Positions 36,129 to 45,530 of a stretch of 64,000 bases of DNA are shown piece after piece. The first letter of the stretch is position 1, and each line of letters starts with the position of its first letter. The notes below the pieces were generated by a model. It was not told the DNA's origin. It saw nothing but the letters and a program-made list of their open reading frames with translations, and did no database searches. The stretch comes from an uncultured Alphaproteobacteria bacterium (GTDB lineage Bacteria > Pseudomonadota > Alphaproteobacteria > Rs-D84). The DNA lies in the NCBI GenBank assembly GCA_944389265.1, contig CALXLS010000001.1:1-64000 (forward strand), read 5' to 3'. A program made the position numbers and the translations under genes.

Positions 36129-36241
36129 TTGATTTTTTTACTATTTTATGATATACTGAATATAATTGATAAGGTGGTCTTGGTGACCGCTTTTTTTATT
36201 GCCCCGTTTTATGGGGCCCTTTTTATTTTCAAGGAGCCTTT
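36129..36241 (+). promoter_or_regulatory. Promoter and double-hairpin leader of the cytosine-MTase operon
   Basis: TTGATT (36129-36134) and TATACT (36152-36157), 17 bp apart, predict a start near 36164. The leader then holds two terminator-like hairpins: 36174-36179/36185-36190 followed by seven T, and 36201-36205/36213-36217 followed by a T-rich run. An AAGGAG ribosome site (36231-36236) comes directly after. Consecutive hairpin-T units in a 5' leader suggest attenuation, keeping expression of the methylase-nuclease pair low or conditional. Confidence 0.7.
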
Positions 36242-37117
36242 ATGCAAAAATATAAATACATAAACCTATTTTCTGGCATCGGTGGCTGGGAATTAGGACT
36301 GCAAGACTTACCAATGGAAAACATTTTGTCTTGTGAAATTGATAAGTATGCACGTCAAACTTTCCTTGCTAATTTTCCCGACCTGCCCTGCATAAAAAAT
36401 AATAAATACCCTACGGATATTCGCAAACTTAACCCGCATGACATACCAGAATTTGATATTCTGGTTGGCAGCCCACCATGTCAATCTTTCTCAACCGCAG
36501 GACTTCGTAAAGGCTTAAAAGATTATAAAGACGATAAAGGCAATATGTTCTTCTATGTCTTGAACATTATTAAACACCACCGTCCCAAAGCATTTATTCT
36601 GGAAAATGTAAAGGGATTACTTACAGCCGAAGGTGGTAGAAGTTTTCGTATTATTCACGACTTATTTCGTAATGCAGGTTATTCGTTTCATTATAAAGTA
36701 ATAAAAGGTTGTGATTGTGGAATTCCACAGGTCCGACAGCGCGTCTTTATGGTCGGATTTCGTGACGAGAATCAAGAAACAAGCACATTTCAGTTTCCAT
36801 CCCCAGTTCCACTTAAATTTACTATGCGTGATGTGTTTAAGTGTAAAACTTGCAATAGAGATATTGGGCATACAGTTATGACAACCCGCCACAACAAAAA
36901 TTATGGAGAACCTTTAAATTGGTCTGCATATATAATTGACGGGAAGGAAAGACGTATAACATTAGATGAAATTCAAATGTTAATGGGATTACCTGATAAC
37001 TTTTTGTTTCCTGTTCCTAAAACCCAACGAATGAAACAACTTGGAAACAGTATAATACCTGATTGTGTTAATATGGTATCAAAACAGGTTCTTTTGTACT
37101 TGAAAAACATCTCTTGA
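36242..37117 (+). CDS. DNA cytosine-C5 methyltransferase
   Basis: A 291-residue C5-MTase with motif I LFSGIGGWELGL, motif IV GSPPCQSFSTAG (catalytic Cys), motif VI ENVKG, motif VIII QVRQRVFMVG and the final motif X near LGNSI. The target-recognition region (about 185-235) is short and includes a CKTC pair. It modifies a specific DNA sequence and here precedes an exported PLD-family nuclease, making a modification partner likely. A strong ribosome site follows a double-hairpin leader. All catalytic motifs are intact. Confidence 0.95.
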   Translation: MQKYKYINLFSGIGGWELGLQDLPMENILSCEIDKYARQTFLANFPDLPCIKNNKYPTDIRKLNPHDIPEFDILVGSPPCQSFSTAGLRKGLKDYKDDKGNMFFYVLNIIKHHRPKAFILENVKGLLTAEGGRSFRIIHDLFRNAGYSFHYKVIKGCDCGIPQVRQRVFMVGFRDENQETSTFQFPSPVPLKFTMRDVFKCKTCNRDIGHTVMTTRHNKNYGEPLNWSAYIIDGKERRITLDEIQMLMGLPDNFLFPVPKTQRMKQLGNSIIPDCVNMVSKQVLLYLKNIS

Positions 37118-37134
37118 TTGGCAACTATTCTTTT

Positions 37135-38157
37135 ATGAAAAAAATATTTGTGCTTTTTTTCAGTGTTTTTATGTTGATATTCCATAGTGCCACAGCATTT
37201 GAAATATCAGACATAAAAAAATATCCTGCTATTGTTGTTAAAACAATGGTTGAAAGTGATACGCTTCATAAAACAACAAGTAAGAAAACAGAAATACGAA
37301 ATGGCGAGGCTTTACGAAAAATTCTAGGCGATGAAAAGGTAAAATTTGATACAGAATATGTATATATAGGTGATAAAAAAATAGAAGAAGAAGGTTATAC
37401 CACCTGGTATCATTACACAAGCCCGAAATCAAAAACTCAAAAGCCTGTTTATCATTTGTATTATCAAAAGAAACGTCCTATGTACGAAGGACAAGTTGGT
37501 GATACATTGGCCGTTATACGAAAATCTGATAGTGAGATAGTTTTACTTATTGTAAAGCAAGATAGTGATGCAGAAAAAGAATTATATGAAATTATCGGTA
37601 TGCTGCCAAAACATACAGAAAATAAAGGATCTACATTTTGGCAACGTTTATGGAATACAGAATCAAAACGAACCGAAGATTATGAATTAGAAGAAGAAAC
37701 TTTATCACTACCTGCAATACCAGAAAAATCTTGGGTGCGTGTTTATTTCACCCCAGGCACAGATTGTGAAAACAACATTGTTGCTGAAATCAACAATGCT
37801 AAAAAGATTGATATCGCTGTTTATTCTATAACAAACCAAAATATAGTTGATGCTATAATAGAAGCAAAAGAACGTGGTGCAAAAATAAGGGTTATAACAG
37901 ACAGATTACAATCAAAAGGCAAACATTCGTTAGTTGACGAACTTTCTGATGCAGGTATCCCCGTTATAACAAATGTTGGACATAAGATTATGCACAATAA
38001 GTTTGCTATATTTGACGGTAAAAGAATAGAAAGCGGCAGTTATAACTGGACTGAAAGCGCAACAGAATCAAACGCAGAAAATTGTACGTTCTTTGAACAA
38101 AAAAATAAAACCTTCTCTAAACAGTTTGAATATCTTTGGGATTTATATCAAAAATAA
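37135..38157 (+). CDS. Exported PLD-family nuclease 1 with N-terminal recognition-like domain
   Basis: The ATG at 37135 begins a canonical signal peptide (MKKIFVLFF...SATA, cleavage before FE at about 21/22). The gene starts 17 bases after the MTase stop; no clear ribosome site, so coupling is likely. Mature residues about 25-165 form a beta-rich domain with TTWYHYTSP and GDTLAVIRKSD, resembling B3-like DNA-recognition domains of EcoRII-N/BfiI type (inference). The C-terminal half (about 190-340) is a single-HKD phospholipase D nuclease with HNKFAIFDGK at 287 and SGSYNWT. One HKD per chain implies a dimer, as in Nuc and BfiI. Confidence 0.88.
   Translation: MKKIFVLFFSVFMLIFHSATAFEISDIKKYPAIVVKTMVESDTLHKTTSKKTEIRNGEALRKILGDEKVKFDTEYVYIGDKKIEEEGYTTWYHYTSPKSKTQKPVYHLYYQKKRPMYEGQVGDTLAVIRKSDSEIVLLIVKQDSDAEKELYEIIGMLPKHTENKGSTFWQRLWNTESKRTEDYELEEETLSLPAIPEKSWVRVYFTPGTDCENNIVAEINNAKKIDIAVYSITNQNIVDAIIEAKERGAKIRVITDRLQSKGKHSLVDELSDAGIPVITNVGHKIMHNKFAIFDGKRIESGSYNWTESATESNAENCTFFEQKNKTFSKQFEYLWDLYQK
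37696..38157 (+). repeat. Nearly identical 3' half shared with the second nuclease gene
   Basis: From about 37690 to the stop codon this DNA matches about 39600-40070 with only scattered mismatches, many at third codon positions. Upstream of this boundary the two genes diverge strongly. This marks a recent duplication or gene conversion restricted to the PLD catalytic half. Confidence 0.9.
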
Positions 38158-38176
38158 AAAAAGATAACCTATTTTT

Positions 38177-38204
38177 GCTCTGGCTTGTTCCAGAGCATTT
38201 TTTA
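38177..38204 (+). terminator. Intrinsic terminator between the two MTase/nuclease units
   Basis: Stem GCTCTGG/CCAGAGC (38177-38183/38190-38196), 6-base loop, then six T. It separates the first methylase-nuclease operon from the second. Confidence 0.9.
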
Positions 38205-38220
38205 TGCTTAAAGGAAAATC

Positions 38221-39018
38221 ATGCAAAGTAAAAAATTGCTACGTGCAAAGTTAGCAAAAAATGACGAATTTTATACACGGTATGAAGATGTAAAATCAGA
38301 ATGCGACAATTATATGTCGCATTTTTTTAACAAAATCATCTATTGTAATTGCGATACAGAAAATAGCGCATTTGTAAAATATTTTACCGAACTTAAACAA
38401 AAAAAAATTATAAAAGATATTTGGTACAGCGGGGGACTTGGTGGAATAGATTTTAGGTCTAAAACATCTATAAAATTATTAAAAAAGGCGGATTTAATAA
38501 TAACAAATCCGCCTTTTTCTTTATTCCGTGAATTTCTGGATTTACTTATAAAGTACGACAAAAAATTCTTAATAATTGGTAATAAAAATGCCATTGCATA
38601 TAGAAAAATATTTACGCGCATAAAAAATAATAAAATATGGTTTGGTGTGCGCAAGTGGACTGGTGGAATACCTTTTATTACACAAGACAATAATATAAAA
38701 GAAATACCTGCAATTTGGTTTACTAATCTAAGCCACAGATTCCGCCCTGCATCGCTTTTATTAACTAAAAATTTTAATTCTGATGAATTTATAAAATATG
38801 ATAATGCAAACGCTATAAATATAAATAAAACAGCAGACATACCAAAAGATTATTTAGGCGTCATGGGTGTTCCTATTAGCTTCTTAGAAAAATACACCCC
38901 AACCCAATTTGAAATACTAGGTTTAGATAAAGATTTTACTTATGATAAGGGTGCTGGACTTATAATGGGGAAACGCATATACACAAGAATTTTTATTAGA
39001 AAAAAATCTTGCGCATAA
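38221..39018 (+). CDS. EcoRI-type adenine-specific DNA methyltransferase
   Basis: A 265-residue protein of the EcoRI methylase family. The N-terminus reads KNDEFYTRYEDVKSE. Motif IV is ITNPPFSLFREF near residue 92, and the unusual AdoMet region includes IIYCNCDTENSAFVKYF. It methylates adenine within a specific site. It has an AAAGGA ribosome site and follows a terminator, so it starts a new unit with exported nuclease 2. It is shorter than EcoRI methylase (326 residues) but keeps the core; the C-terminus is compact. Host DNA modification is the expected role. Confidence 0.9.
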   Translation: MQSKKLLRAKLAKNDEFYTRYEDVKSECDNYMSHFFNKIIYCNCDTENSAFVKYFTELKQKKIIKDIWYSGGLGGIDFRSKTSIKLLKKADLIITNPPFSLFREFLDLLIKYDKKFLIIGNKNAIAYRKIFTRIKNNKIWFGVRKWTGGIPFITQDNNIKEIPAIWFTNLSHRFRPASLLLTKNFNSDEFIKYDNANAININKTADIPKDYLGVMGVPISFLEKYTPTQFEILGLDKDFTYDKGAGLIMGKRIYTRIFIRKKSCA

Positions 39019-39044
39019 GAATATATATGTTTCATACTACCCAT

Positions 39045-40070
39045 ATGTTAAAGCGCGTATTTTCTTTTTTTATATACATTTTTTCGATATGTTTCATATC
39101 TTTTGCATCATTTGCTTTCGAAGTTCGCGATTTAATAACCTATAACGCAGTCGCAATAAAAACTATGAAACCGACCGACACAATACGTCCAGATAAAAAG
39201 CAAACCTTACAAATCACTGGTACAAAAGACCTAGAAAAAGTTTTGGGAACAGAAAAAAAAGAATTTGAAACTCTTTATGTTTATATTGGTGAAACACAAA
39301 TAGAAGAATACAGTACTGCAAAATGGTACTATTACTATCAACCATCGTGGAATGGGCGCGGACGCGGTAAATTAAACTATAAAAGAAATTCTATAACAGA
39401 ATCTGGTGCTGCGGGTGATACTTTATTCGTTGCTAGAAAAAACAACAAAGAATTACTTTTTATAATAGTCGAAAAAGGAAATCCTGCAAAAGAAATAATT
39501 TTAAGGACACTCGGATTAAAAAGTGAAGAAGATACAAATACTTCTTCTTTTTGGCAACGACTATGGCGCACAGAATCAGAACAAGCCGAAGACTATGAAT
39601 TAGAAGAAGAAACTTTATCACTACCTGCAATACCAGAAAAATCTTGGGTGCGTGTTTATTTCACCCCTGGCACAGATTGTGAAAATAATATTATCGCTGA
39701 AATCAACAATGCCAAAAAGATTGATATCGCTGTTTATTCTATAACAAACCAAAATATAGTTGATGCTATAATAGAAGCAAAAGAACGTGGTGCAAAAATA
39801 AGGGTTATAACAGACAGATTACAATCAAAAGGCAAACATTCATTAGTTGATGAAATTGAATCCGCTGGTATACCCGTTATAACAAATGTTGGACATAAGA
39901 TTATGCACAATAAGTTTGCTATATTTGACGGTAAAAGAATAGAAAGTGGCAGTTATAACTGGACTGAAAGTGCAACAGAATCAAACGCAGAAAATTGTAC
40001 GTTCTTTGAACAAGAAAATAAAACCTTCTCTAAACAGTTTGAATATCTTTGGGATTTATATCAAAAATAG
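39045..40070 (+). CDS. Exported PLD-family nuclease 2 with divergent recognition-like domain
   Basis: The ATG at 39045 opens a clear signal peptide (MLKRVFSFF...ASFA, cleavage about 24/25 before FE). ATG at 39027, with AAGA upstream, would add six residues. The N-terminal mature half (about 26-170) is only moderately similar to nuclease 1 but keeps the same layout: YVYIGETQIEE, WYYYYQPSWNG and GDTLFVARKNNKEL. The PLD half is almost identical to nuclease 1, with HNKFAIFD at about 288. Pairing with a different MTase suggests a second target specificity. It is followed 11 bases later by the VanX-like gene. Confidence 0.88.
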   Translation: MLKRVFSFFIYIFSICFISFASFAFEVRDLITYNAVAIKTMKPTDTIRPDKKQTLQITGTKDLEKVLGTEKKEFETLYVYIGETQIEEYSTAKWYYYYQPSWNGRGRGKLNYKRNSITESGAAGDTLFVARKNNKELLFIIVEKGNPAKEIILRTLGLKSEEDTNTSSFWQRLWRTESEQAEDYELEEETLSLPAIPEKSWVRVYFTPGTDCENNIIAEINNAKKIDIAVYSITNQNIVDAIIEAKERGAKIRVITDRLQSKGKHSLVDEIESAGIPVITNVGHKIMHNKFAIFDGKRIESGSYNWTESATESNAENCTFFEQENKTFSKQFEYLWDLYQK

Positions 40071-40081
40071 GTGGTATTTTA

Positions 40082-40804
40082 ATGAAATACAAAGTTTATA
40101 TTTCTGTTATATTATGGCATTTAGGAACACGTAAAATTTTACCTTCAGAATATATAAACAAAAAAACTATTAAAGATACTGCCTGTCCACTTATAGATAT
40201 TTCTAAAGACAAGCGTTTTTCTTTTGATGAAATGGCTTTAAGTCGTGGTGGTTGTTGGGTTCGCGCAGATTTATTATCGATGCTTCATAGCGCAGCTGAC
40301 AAATTGCCTGACGGCATAAAACTTCATTTCTTTTGTGGTTGGCGCCACCCAGCCGTTCAATGGGCTGCATGGGAAAGGGTTTTGGCACAAAAACGAAAGG
40401 CTTTCCCCGAACTAACAGAACAAGAAATAATAAGAATTACAAGAATGACCGTAGCGGACCCTTCTCGTGGTGGGTTCGGTCCACATCAAACAGGTGGCGC
40501 GATTGATGTCGCGCTTATAAAAGACGGCGAACTTTTAGATATGGGGACAACTTTTGACCACCATGGAATTAAAAGCCAAACTAAGTATAAAAATATAACA
40601 AAACAACAAAAACAAAACAGAAAAGCTTTATTTGACGCACTTACCGCCTCAGGTTTCTTTAACTACCCTGCAGAATGGTGGCATTATAGTTACGGTGACA
40701 GAATGTGGGCGGTGTATAACAATAAACCTTTTGCAATTTATGGTAAAATAGAGAATAAGCACTATAAGCTAACCCCAGAAGAAATAAAATATACAAAAAA
40801 ATAA
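40082..40804 (+). CDS. VanX/DdpX-like D-alanyl-D-alanine dipeptidase
   Basis: The ATG at 40082 has GGTGG upstream. The 240-residue zinc peptidase of family M15D has GPHQTGGAIDVAL (zinc His and Asp) near residue 138 and PAEWWHYSYGDRMWA (catalytic Glu and zinc His) near 200. VanX-type enzymes cleave D-Ala-D-Ala or related peptidoglycan-derived dipeptides. There is no clear signal peptide, so it is probably cytoplasmic and acts in cell-wall recycling. Its closeness to the nuclease gene suggests read-through transcription rather than shared function. Confidence 0.92.
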   Translation: MKYKVYISVILWHLGTRKILPSEYINKKTIKDTACPLIDISKDKRFSFDEMALSRGGCWVRADLLSMLHSAADKLPDGIKLHFFCGWRHPAVQWAAWERVLAQKRKAFPELTEQEIIRITRMTVADPSRGGFGPHQTGGAIDVALIKDGELLDMGTTFDHHGIKSQTKYKNITKQQKQNRKALFDALTASGFFNYPAEWWHYSYGDRMWAVYNNKPFAIYGKIENKHYKLTPEEIKYTKK

Positions 40805-43088: not shown

Positions 43089-43118
43089 TATTTGGGTATA
43101 AAGCAACAGAGGTTTCTG

Positions 43119-45530
43119 ATGGCAGATGTAAATATGAACGATTTTCTTTTGCAATATTATATGCAGTTGCATTTCAATGCAATGCCACCTGAAATCTTTG
43201 CTAAATATCAAGATTATGTAAAAGCAGATGACTTCCGTGGCAATATGAAAGACTGGAAGTCAAAATTAATGCATCAAGACAATAGTGGTAAATGGGTAAA
43301 AAATGGCCTACCTGATCCAAATGATGCAAACGGGAATTTCCATCTGACTGATGATGAATGGAAAAAATTGTTTAATGCCTTCCAAGGCGCTATGCGCGGG
43401 ATGTCCGCCAATACAAAAAGTTTCGCAGAAAACGCCAAGGCGAATGCTTTCCTTGAAGAATATTTTGGTGACCCTGCTACACACCTTTTCTCGAACGGAA
43501 CCGCAAATCAGACTGCAGAAGCACAAATTCAAGTCCTGAAAAATTTGCTGTCTGATAATACTTTCCGATCAACATTAAATTTCTATATCAAAGATATTTT
43601 AAAAGAAGCAGAAATTTCTTATTCTGATTTATTAAGCGGCATTAATTCTAAAAAGTATAATACTGACCCTAAATTTCAAACAACTTTGAAACAAGTCGCT
43701 AGTTATATGAACTATTATGTTCATAATGATCAAAATTTAGCGGCTTCACCATATGGTACACAAGACTTTTCTGCAATTGAATCTGGTTTTGATGATACAA
43801 CCGTTCCACAAAACAAACTTGATTACTTTAAAAGAAATTATAAAACCCTTTTAAATACTCTGCATAACGATTCCAAAGTTTATGAAGTATTTAAAAGTTT
43901 TGATAAGGGTAAAATCTCTAAATCTTTAGATGCAGCATTAAGCAAAGTAGATTATGCAAATAAAGATAGCAAAGATTATGTTCCTCCAAAACGTAGTGAC
44001 GAATTAACCCCATGGCAACACTTACAAGGTGAAATTAGTGATACCTTGGAAGACTATATGGGAAAATATATTCATCTACGTGGTGATAGATTATACTTTT
44101 CTGATTCCGCAAAACTAATTATAAAAGCAATTGATGGAACAAAGTTTAAACCAACTGACGGTATCGCAAAAGTATTGGAAAATACGGGAAAGATTAAAGA
44201 AAACTTACTTTATAAATCCCCACGTGCAACTGACCATTTTGATTGGTTTTCCAAAACGCTGGGTGAATTAAAATCTACTATGCCAAAAGCTTTTGATGGC
44301 GCTTTAAAAAATGCCCGCCAAATGAAAGCGTTGATAGAAGAAATGATTATCAAAGCAGTTCGTGAAAATAAAATAGACGAAGCAAAAACTGCTATGGAGG
44401 TTCTATCAGTAATTAAGTACGGCTATACAACCAGTAAAATTATGGACGCACTTAGTAAAGAACAGTTAACTATATTCTCTGATGGCGGATTATCTTGGAA
44501 TAAAAACGAAGGTGTAAAATTTGTCACAACCGCTATGGATAAAAGCATAAAAGCAGCCTTTATGATGGTCGGATATATTATTACCGTTACAGGAAATGTC
44601 TATAAACTTTCTGGCAGTAAATTTAACGGAAAAACAAAACGCGTAAAAAGTAAAAGAGACGCATGGTTAAATGATAATGCGGCAGGTTTACAAGCCGCTA
44701 CACAAAAACGAGATACAGAAAATCAAATTGATATAACAGACCGCAGTAATCAAGAAACTATACTGCAAGGTACGGGCATAACTGACCAAACAATAGCCCA
44801 AGAAAAACAAAACCTTGAAACCTTTAAACAAGACGCAGAACAAAAACACTCTGCTTTAGAAACGGCGTCAACAACTTATAATGATGCAAGAAGCCTTATA
44901 GACGAAAATGATTCTTATACTGCACAAATAAATCAATTAAATACTGAAATGCAGCAAATTGCTGCAGATATAGCACAGATAGATAATGATTTACAAAATC
45001 CTAATACTTTTGCAGGGATGCAACCCGCCGTTGCAAATGCATATGCAAATGATTTAATGAAACAAAAACGCGACAAACAAAATCTTGGTCAAAAGAAATT
45101 AAAACAAGCACAAGATTTAAGCAATCAACAAATGCAAATTAATCAACAAGACTTAGCAAATGCACGCGCCAATATTAGACAATATCAACAAAATTTTGTA
45201 AATGCAGAAAGGAATTATAATGCTGCGCAATCTCGTGCAGACGATTTAAATACAAAAATAAATGATTTCACACTTGCGTCAAGCCGTATAAAAGAACTTA
45301 ACGACAGAATAAACAAAAGAAATGAAGAAGTTTCAAACTGGGATAATAACCATAAGGATAAATATAAAGAACTTATGACTTACTGGGATTTCTTAGAATC
45401 TGGTCGTGATTCTCATACAGGCAACATGTATTCTTGGATGCCGGGCAGTGCAAAGAAAAAGCAAGCAAAATTTGATGCAAATAAAATTGCTCAACTTCAA
45501 GCATATATGTCTAATTATAATGTGGCTTGA
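43119..45530 (+). CDS. Unrecognised 803-residue protein with long coiled coil
   Basis: The ATG at 43119 is chosen for its AGAGG ribosome site and the plausible MADVNMNDF start. Residues about 1-480 form a helical, possibly globular region rich in Lys, Asp and aromatic residues. About 490-515 hold a hydrophobic stretch (AAFMMVGYIITVTG) that could be a membrane or core helix. About 545-770 are Gln/Asn-rich coiled coil with DLNTKINDF-like heptads. No enzyme motif. The next gene encodes a phage-tail-fibre-like protein, so it may be a domesticated phage structural protein or a large surface protein, but there is no signal peptide. Confidence 0.65.
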   Translation: MADVNMNDFLLQYYMQLHFNAMPPEIFAKYQDYVKADDFRGNMKDWKSKLMHQDNSGKWVKNGLPDPNDANGNFHLTDDEWKKLFNAFQGAMRGMSANTKSFAENAKANAFLEEYFGDPATHLFSNGTANQTAEAQIQVLKNLLSDNTFRSTLNFYIKDILKEAEISYSDLLSGINSKKYNTDPKFQTTLKQVASYMNYYVHNDQNLAASPYGTQDFSAIESGFDDTTVPQNKLDYFKRNYKTLLNTLHNDSKVYEVFKSFDKGKISKSLDAALSKVDYANKDSKDYVPPKRSDELTPWQHLQGEISDTLEDYMGKYIHLRGDRLYFSDSAKLIIKAIDGTKFKPTDGIAKVLENTGKIKENLLYKSPRATDHFDWFSKTLGELKSTMPKAFDGALKNARQMKALIEEMIIKAVRENKIDEAKTAMEVLSVIKYGYTTSKIMDALSKEQLTIFSDGGLSWNKNEGVKFVTTAMDKSIKAAFMMVGYIITVTGNVYKLSGSKFNGKTKRVKSKRDAWLNDNAAGLQAATQKRDTENQIDITDRSNQETILQGTGITDQTIAQEKQNLETFKQDAEQKHSALETASTTYNDARSLIDENDSYTAQINQLNTEMQQIAADIAQIDNDLQNPNTFAGMQPAVANAYANDLMKQKRDKQNLGQKKLKQAQDLSNQQMQINQQDLANARANIRQYQQNFVNAERNYNAAQSRADDLNTKINDFTLASSRIKELNDRINKRNEEVSNWDNNHKDKYKELMTYWDFLESGRDSHTGNMYSWMPGSAKKKQAKFDANKIAQLQAYMSNYNVA

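Follow-up and report, generated by a model that had tools for sequence, protein, structure and literature searches.

Two DNA methyltransferase genes, each paired with a predicted exported B3-PLD nuclease, form candidate compartment-split restriction-modification systems

Two methyltransferase-nuclease units

The window analyzed is a stretch of 64,000 nucleotides from contig CALXLS010000001.1 of an uncultured alphaproteobacterium (GTDB Rs-D84). It carries two DNA methyltransferase (MTase) genes, and directly 3' of each, on the same strand, lies a PLDc_2 gene (PF13091, ~1e-26). The features of the locus are as follows:

36129..36157, + strand: promoter-like site 5' of unit 1, TTGATT-17-TATACT (consensus scan only; such sites are no commoner than in shuffled sequence)
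36171..36230, + strand: two tandem terminator-like hairpins with T runs, immediately 5' of the C5 MTase ribosome-binding site
36242..37117, + strand: C5-cytosine DNA MTase of unit 1, 291 aa (PF00145, E 1.2e-68)
37135..38157, + strand: predicted exported nuclease 1 (signal peptide, B3-like recognition domain, PLD nuclease), 340 aa
37135..37197, + strand: signal peptide of nuclease 1, cleavage A21|F22 (A21 and F22 invariant in alignment A1)
37198..37602, + strand: B3-like (EcoRII-N type) recognition domain of nuclease 1 (AF2 model and fold comparison)
37729..38154, + strand: NucT-type PLD nuclease domain of nuclease 1, single HKD (PF13091, 1.3e-26; profile match to 1byr, E 8e-21)
38162..40796, + strand: segment with unit 2 and an M15 peptidase gene, adjoining tRNA-Lys (absent at the same locus in the close relative L005)
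38176..38203, + strand: terminator-like hairpin between units 1 and 2
38221..39018, + strand: short EcoRI-type N6-adenine DNA MTase of unit 2, 265 aa (PF13651, E 1.5e-73; NPPF motif)
39045..40070, + strand: predicted exported nuclease 2 (signal peptide, B3-like domain, PLD nuclease), 341 aa (alternative ATG at 39027)
39045..39116, + strand: signal peptide of nuclease 2, cleavage A24|F25
39117..39521, + strand: B3-like recognition domain of nuclease 2 (profile family of nuclease 1, E 7e-58; same predicted order of strands and helices)
39642..40067, + strand: NucT-type PLD nuclease domain of nuclease 2 (fold match to NucT)

An earlier sequence-only reading had described a C5 and an EcoRI-type adenine MTase, each followed by a single-HKD PLD gene with its motif near residues 287/288. 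The PF00145, PF13651 and PF13091 matches bear this out, and alignment A1 places HxKx4D at H287/K289/D294 of nuclease 1. The same reading held that the nucleases differ in their N-terminal halves and are almost identical in their PLD halves; indeed, protein identity was only 34% between the B3 halves, whereas DNA identity was 94% over 527 bp between the PLD halves. The nuclease genes probably start at ATG 37135 and ATG 39045 (or 39027), rather than at the TTG codons of the open-reading-frame list. Fused MTase-nuclease open frames of 620-674 aa were rejected, as in-frame stops separate the two genes in the DNA. The tandem hairpins before the C5 MTase gene were retained across the compared C5 systems, and their stem sequences varied.

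Export signals and domain architecture

Signal peptides were called by rules (hydrophobic core, charge and cleavage motif; not SignalP). The sites obtained, A21|F22 and A24|F25, agree with the cleavage before FE proposed earlier. Among the 27 non-duplicate nucleases (31 intact genes found in the family survey described below, minus duplicates), 26 had a predicted SPase-I-type signal peptide, and the L052 nuclease had a lipoprotein signal instead, with the lipobox LTGC (read by hand). An export signal of either type was therefore predicted in 27/27, and orthologues lacking one, an outcome that had been named as speaking against export, did not occur in this set by rule-based prediction. Signal peptides were found in none of the 27 partner MTases and in none of five cytoplasmic EcoRII relatives; three further relatives were also without one.

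In nuclease 1, the B3 domain spans residues 22-156 and the PLD domain residues 199-340. Although no Pfam model matches the N-terminal domain, its B3 relationship was found by fold comparison and by a profile search across the class. The best fold matches of the AlphaFold model were restriction-enzyme domains, namely EcoRII-N (Z 10.8), BfiI-B3 (Z 9.8) and LlaJI.R1-N (Z 9.2), with pLDDT mostly 80-95 over the domain, moderate overall model confidence (mean pLDDT 65-69) and a disordered linker. The fold check suggested for this half of the protein thus returned a DNA-recognition fold of the B3/EcoRII-N/BfiI type. For nuclease 2, where PLD matches fill the fold-match list, the B3 assignment comes from the profile and from the order of strands and helices. 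Elsewhere, the closest relatives of the B3 domain are conventional EcoRII enzymes that lack a signal peptide; class-wide, these relatives (PF09019) are accompanied by a C5 MTase and Vsr, with profile E values of 1e-12 to 1e-22. Where homologues of B3 occur on plasmids, their annotation is type II restriction endonuclease.

The catalytic part of nuclease 2 matched NucT (6ehi, Z 20.7) and Nuc (1byr, Z 19.5), and is nearer to periplasmic NucT than to BfiI (2c1l, Z 12.2). In four relatives (L055-L058), SNase (PF00565) takes the place of PLD, with signal, B3 domain and MTase retained. The PADLOC/NCBIfam identities DrmC, NucT and DpdK were rejected as PLD-domain matches only, below family cut-offs where such exist. 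C211 and C317, invariant in alignment A1 and absent in Nuc, are a candidate disulfide.

Obligatory pairing and co-variation of recognition regions

We surveyed 183 genomes of the GTDB family of the window organism and found 31 intact signal-B3-PLD-type nuclease genes, all in the window's own genus; the known cases are confined to this one genus, and all are in metagenome-assembled genomes. A C5 or EcoRI-type MTase gene lay directly 5' on the same strand in 31/31 cases, and this adjacency recurs at several different genomic sites. Whole-gene dN/dS of about 0.08-0.16 placed the nuclease genes under purifying selection. Because every intact homologue follows an MTase gene and the nuclease is under purifying selection, the pairing pattern is not due to chance. 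Within the family survey, an intact nuclease without an MTase was never found. MTases without nucleases in most relatives, which the sequence-only reading had named as a contrary outcome, were not seen; the exceptions were an orphan MTase (L121) and an MTase with a nuclease fragment only (L135). Viral contigs contained no relative. The long-type EcoRI MTases of the family (L075-L083) were set aside as a separate system, paired with a different gene.

The recognition regions of the two partners co-vary. Across 7-8 C5 pairs with shared ancestry, the target-recognition region of the MTase (about residues 201-246 of the unit 1 enzyme) correlated with the B3 domain (r 0.92, p 0.0007) but not with the PLD half (r 0.02), and the C5 catalytic part did not correlate significantly with B3 (r 0.13). 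Similarly, the variable part of the N6 MTase followed B3 (r 0.74, p 0.0001) rather than PLD (r 0.22). In L048, a PLD member, the nearest B3 domain and the nearest MTase variable region were both those of L058, an SNase member. That MTase recognition regions follow B3 and catalytic regions do not is strong, though indirect, support for the view that the partners may read the same site.

A probable restriction-modification system divided between compartments

Domain content, export signals, obligatory pairing, MTase-B3 co-variation and catalytic-module interchange are supported here. On this basis, each pair is probably a type-II-like restriction-modification (R-M) system whose halves reside in different compartments, with the endonuclease exported, and we favor a role in sorting self from non-self DNA. 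The earlier proposal of sequence-specific periplasmic nucleases with protective MTases is upheld in its export signals, B3 fold and pairing, on which three of the four contrary outcomes it named did not occur, and the present analysis adds the co-variation, the SNase replacement and the cytoplasmic EcoRII cousins lacking signal peptides; as to the cutting itself, we infer that the exported nuclease cleaves DNA in a site-specific and methylation-sensitive manner. The MTase would remain in the cytoplasm and mark a short site in the DNA of its own cell. Its partner, exported by a Sec signal (or by a lipoprotein signal in one relative), would act in or beyond the periplasm, where the EcoRII/BfiI-type B3 domain would read the site of the MTase. 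Unmarked DNA would then be cut by a module able to work outside the cell, either a metal-independent NucT-type PLD or, in relatives, a staphylococcal-nuclease type. In the favored role, transforming or phage DNA entering via the periplasm would be sorted, with kin DNA spared and foreign DNA cut, in what would be a purine-salvaging cell with competence genes: ComEC was found in 20/21 genomes searched, and DprA and a secretin are present in the genome. An enzyme in the periplasm has no contact with the chromosome of its own cell, so that it is not obvious why it should always require an MTase; pairing this strict is a hint that some of the activity may be cytoplasmic or directed at kin. In the broader reading, these R-M systems form a class in which the methyl mark is set in the cytoplasm and recognized beyond it, by exported site-specific nucleases whose PLD and SNase modules are interchangeable; through them a naturally competent purine auxotroph would keep incoming kin DNA and would cut, perhaps eat, foreign DNA. 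We judge this reading about evenly balanced between right and wrong.

A nutritional role is also conceivable, in which the exported nuclease mainly breaks down DNA from the environment to supply a purine auxotroph with nucleotides, and the MTase and site specificity do no more than keep sister-cell DNA intact or shield the chromosome from un-exported enzyme. PurH is absent from the genome, whereas the same search, as a control, found it in 12/14 genomes; nucleotide biosynthesis is incomplete in Rs-D84/Enterousia genomes (PMC12306168); NucT, which among solved structures is the closest relative of the catalytic part, resides in the periplasm and has been linked to purine salvage and to transformation (PMC5714352); and Mycoplasma Mm19 was interpreted in such terms (PMC4807054). 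Standalone exported PLD paralogues without B3 or MTase are present in the genus, which fits an exported-nuclease diet, yet they would already serve nutrition. Sequence specificity is needless for nutrition, and diversified, MTase-matched recognition domains and two different systems in one cell resemble self/non-self discrimination. We consider a mainly nutritional role rather unlikely.

It is less probable still that the nuclease leaves the cell to attack competitor DNA, with the MTase as immunity of the producer and its kin. The strict asymmetry by which the nuclease requires the MTase, the coexistence within one genome of two systems that differ in recognition domain, and the presence or absence of the unit at a locus would all fit such a weapon. 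However, signal, B3, linker and nuclease fill the entire protein, with no receptor-binding, translocation or toxin-delivery domain found, and the T2SSE-type ATPase alongside the secretin could serve pili or competence. An ordinary cytoplasmic R-M system, with the hydrophobic N-terminus merely anchoring the endonuclease on the cytoplasmic face of the inner membrane, would accord with all other known type II enzymes, which work in the cytoplasm, and with SNIPE, which shows that membrane-tethered nucleases are able to act during phage injection (PMC13190303). But a positively charged N-terminus, hydrophobic core, A-X-A-type site and invariant A|F constitute a cleavable export signal, which moves the C-terminal part outward; moreover, one member has a lipobox instead, the catalytic modules belong to exported types, and the N-terminal segment is missing in the cytoplasmic EcoRII cousins, making an anchor very improbable. 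That exported nucleases happen to follow unrelated MTases is scarcely credible, given the 31/31 adjacency at several genomic sites and the co-varying recognition regions; nothing in favor of such coincidence was found.

The pairs share parts with several known systems. EcoRII, a type IIE R-M enzyme (Dcm-type C5 MTase, Vsr), has a homologous B3 domain and likewise a C5 MTase neighbor; however, its PD-(D/E)XK catalytic domain (EcoRII-C, PF09019) was not found in the nucleases, which carry PLD or SNase instead, have an added signal peptide and pair with EcoRI-type adenine MTases as well. The PLD-family type IIS enzymes BfiI and BmrI combine the same PLD fold with a B3-like domain, but the domain order is reversed (B3 is N-terminal here, PLD in BfiI), and the window nucleases differ from both in their predicted export signal, single short MTase partner and PLD nearer to NucT. 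NucT of Helicobacter pylori and Nuc of Salmonella are likewise signal-peptide PLD nucleases and come closest to the catalytic part in fold, but stand alone, without a recognition domain or MTase partner; NucT favors single-stranded substrates (PMC5714352). In SNIPE, a nuclease at the cell envelope meets DNA during entry, as proposed here, but self and non-self are told apart by location and tape-measure contact, with no methyltransferase or B3-type recognition domain (PMC13190303). The claim that no exported type II R-M system has been described held in that we found none in the literature searched, and a type II review (PMC4081073) mentions neither periplasm, secretion, signal peptides nor SNase; it is tempered by one weaker precedent, Mm19 of Mycoplasma meleagridis, a surface nuclease of a restriction-enzyme-related family encoded beside an MTase gene (PMC4807054). 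Mm19 differs in belonging to the RE_AlwI family, in its Mg-enhanced, broad degradation of DNA and RNA and in the opposite orientation of the MTase gene; in that paper a membrane segment is predicted and effects of methylation go unreported (PMC4807054).

An exported cutter would shift self/non-self discrimination to the envelope, ahead of DNA entry, and would allow a test of whether DNA in the periplasm is read for its methylation marks. Restriction is normally understood as acting on DNA already inside the cytoplasm. Exchange of the catalytic module, with signal peptide and B3 domain staying the same, would provide a natural set of modular, site-specific nucleases of metal-independent or calcium type, and the compartment-split class, if true, would contain to our knowledge the first SNase-fold restriction enzymes. 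In host-associated bacteria of reduced genome size, such systems would also tie together defense, natural transformation and the scavenging of nucleotides. The host group here consists of gut bacteria with tiny genomes.

Two gene pairs in the window

The window carries two successive pairs of a methyltransferase (MTase) gene and a nuclease gene with a phospholipase-D-family (PLD) domain.

36242-37117, C5-cytosine MTase, unit 1 (PF00145, E 1.2e-68)
37135-38157, nuclease 1 (340 aa), unit 1, directly after the C5 MTase; C-terminal single PLDc_2 (PF13091, about 1e-26)
38221-39018, short EcoRI-type adenine (N6) MTase, unit 2 (PF13651, E 1.5e-73)
39045-40070, nuclease 2 (341 aa), unit 2, after the adenine MTase; C-terminal single PLDc_2 (PF13091, about 1e-26)

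The sequence-only reading had described the PLD halves as almost identical and the N-terminal halves as different. Indeed, the PLD halves share 94% DNA identity over 527 bp, whereas the preceding halves share 34% protein identity, so nucleases 1 and 2 have undergone module exchange or gene conversion. At the homologous locus of a close relative (L005), unit 1 has the same flanks, with tRNA-Lys directly behind nuclease 1; relative to L005, 38162-40796 is an extra segment holding unit 2 and an M15-type peptidase gene. The latter (D-Ala-D-Ala dipeptidase, 40079-40804) lies just ahead of tRNA-Lys. Whole-gene dN/dS values of about 0.08-0.16 show purifying selection on the genes.

Tandem terminator-like hairpins with T runs (36171-36230) lie immediately 5' of the C5 MTase ribosome-binding site. 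Such hairpins also precede the C5 MTase at homologous loci L005-L012, L016, L055 and L135, with structure retained and stem sequence varying. The upstream TatD gene is divergent in the window and so is not terminated by these hairpins, which may attenuate or insulate the restriction-modification (R-M) operon. Large proteins of unknown family (564-814 aa), beginning MADVNMNDFLLQYYMQ.. or MADFNDFLIDLSKQ.., are encoded near several loci (window 43092-45530, L005, L008, L016 and L019); none gave a convincing Pfam match.

Recognition and catalytic domains

Nuclease residues 22-156 gave no Pfam match. In an AlphaFold model built from 15 homologues, pLDDT across this region was mostly 80-95, and fold comparison returned restriction-enzyme recognition domains as top matches: EcoRII-N (3hqf, Z 10.8; 1na6, Z 10.3), the BfiI B3 domain (3zi5, Z 9.8; 2c1l, Z 9.6) and LlaJI.R1-N (Z 9.2), with plant B3 domains next (Z about 8). 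Foldseek was concordant (3hqf, E 3e-4). These matches bear out the comparison with EcoRII-N and BfiI B3 domains that the sequence-only reading had suggested for the mature N-terminal half. Independently, a B3-domain profile search of the class and phylum found EcoRII-like enzymes (405-433 aa) in eight genomes of other families (L088-L092, L146-L148). These have EcoRII-C as catalytic part in the three tested (PF09019, E about 1e-63) and adjoin C5 MTase genes, mostly together with Vsr. The annotation of plasmid-borne B3 matches is likewise type II restriction endonuclease.

For the PLD part of nuclease 2, fold matches were stronger to H. pylori NucT (Z 20.7) and Salmonella Nuc (Z 19.5) than to BfiI (Z 12.2), whose domain order is opposite to that here (B3 first, PLD last). 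The protein thus joins a restriction-enzyme-type recognition half to an exported-nuclease-type catalytic half. In L055-L058, a staphylococcal-nuclease (SNase) domain replaces PLD (PF00565, E 2e-11 to 1e-14 in the three tested), with signal peptide, B3 and upstream MTase retained. PLD (metal-free) and SNase (calcium) are catalytic types typical of nucleases working outside the cytoplasm. The nearest relatives of both the B3 domain and the MTase variable region of L048 (PLD) are in the SNase member L058, suggesting that specificity was retained and the cutter exchanged.

Export signals, pairing and co-variation

Signals were scored by a simple rule (charge, hydrophobic core, cleavage site), which gives predicted export only. 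A positively charged start, hydrophobic core and SPase-I-like site were present in 26 of 27 non-duplicate members, and every nuclease homologue in the alignment has A and F flanking the cleavage point. The remaining member, L052, has a lipoprotein signal (LTGC; assigned by hand, outside rule scoring) that would tether the nuclease to a membrane. The sequence-only reading had noted signal peptides in both window nucleases; no orthologue among the 27 lacked a predicted signal. By the same scoring rule, signals were found in 0/27 partner MTases and 0/5 scored EcoRII-like relatives, which begin at the B3 domain itself.

The survey covered 183 genomes of the GTDB family and 201 of the order, and B3-containing nucleases were confined to the window's own genus. 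All 31 intact genes, a count that includes related genomes and does not represent independent events, had an MTase directly upstream on the same strand (9 C5, 22 N6), with gaps of roughly -54 to +71 bp, and were spread over several distinct genomic sites. Broken copies at four loci (L007, L012, L046 and L135) also adjoin an MTase, convergent at L046. MTases mostly accompany a nuclease, the exceptions being L121, with an MTase alone, and L135, with only a nuclease fragment; no intact nuclease lacked an MTase in the survey. This asymmetry is the usual signature of a nuclease hazardous without its partner MTase.

In C5 pairs, the MTase target-recognition region tracked B3 (r 0.92, p 0.0007, n 7; r 0.77, p 0.0001, n 8 with the SNase member added) and not PLD (r 0.02). 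The C5 catalytic region showed the reverse pattern, with r 0.13 for B3 (not significant) and r 0.61 for PLD (p 0.10). For the variable region of the N6 MTases (n 15-18 pairs), correlation with B3 was r 0.74 (p 0.0001, PLD set), compared with r 0.22 for PLD; the MTase N-part did not track B3 (r 0.00).

The genus also commonly encodes stand-alone exported PLD paralogues of about 175-240 aa (L054, L060-L073) that lack both a B3 domain and an MTase; several have lipoprotein-like signals. Behind most of the full-length EcoRI-type MTases in the same GTDB family (L075-L083) lies a 360-420 aa gene whose start is conserved (..TVRDLVNGYVDN..GVVA..GGKL..RPAYQREFVY..); these seem to form a separate system.

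Known systems and possible role

As the sequence-only reading had supposed, no description of an exported R-M system turned up in a literature search. Closest among reported cases is Mm19 of Mycoplasma meleagridis, an RE_AlwI-related surface nuclease encoded beside an MTase gene, whose broad DNA and RNA degradation was interpreted as nutritional (PMC4807054). SNIPE likewise places a nuclease at the envelope, but without methylation (PMC13190303). Joining EcoRII-type recognition to NucT or SNase catalysis in an exported enzyme would be a new combination for type II R-M.

Each pair is read here as a type-II-like R-M system with an exported cutter, for which domain content, signals, pairing, co-variation and module interchange are supported. 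A shared target site for B3 domain and MTase is inferred, as are site-specific cutting, its block by methylation and the source of the target DNA. The target could equally be phage DNA on its way through the periplasm or DNA being taken up. Nutrition without defence is a possible alternative: NucT is periplasmic and implicated in both purine salvage and transformation (PMC5714352), and a gene search found PurH absent from the window's genome. Another possible reading is a weapon that the cell secretes, to which methylation would confer immunity. A filter on DNA during uptake fits best, in which kin DNA would be spared and foreign DNA cut; ComEC is present in the window's genome and in 19/20 relatives searched, and the window's genome also encodes DprA, a secretin and a T2SSE-type ATPase.
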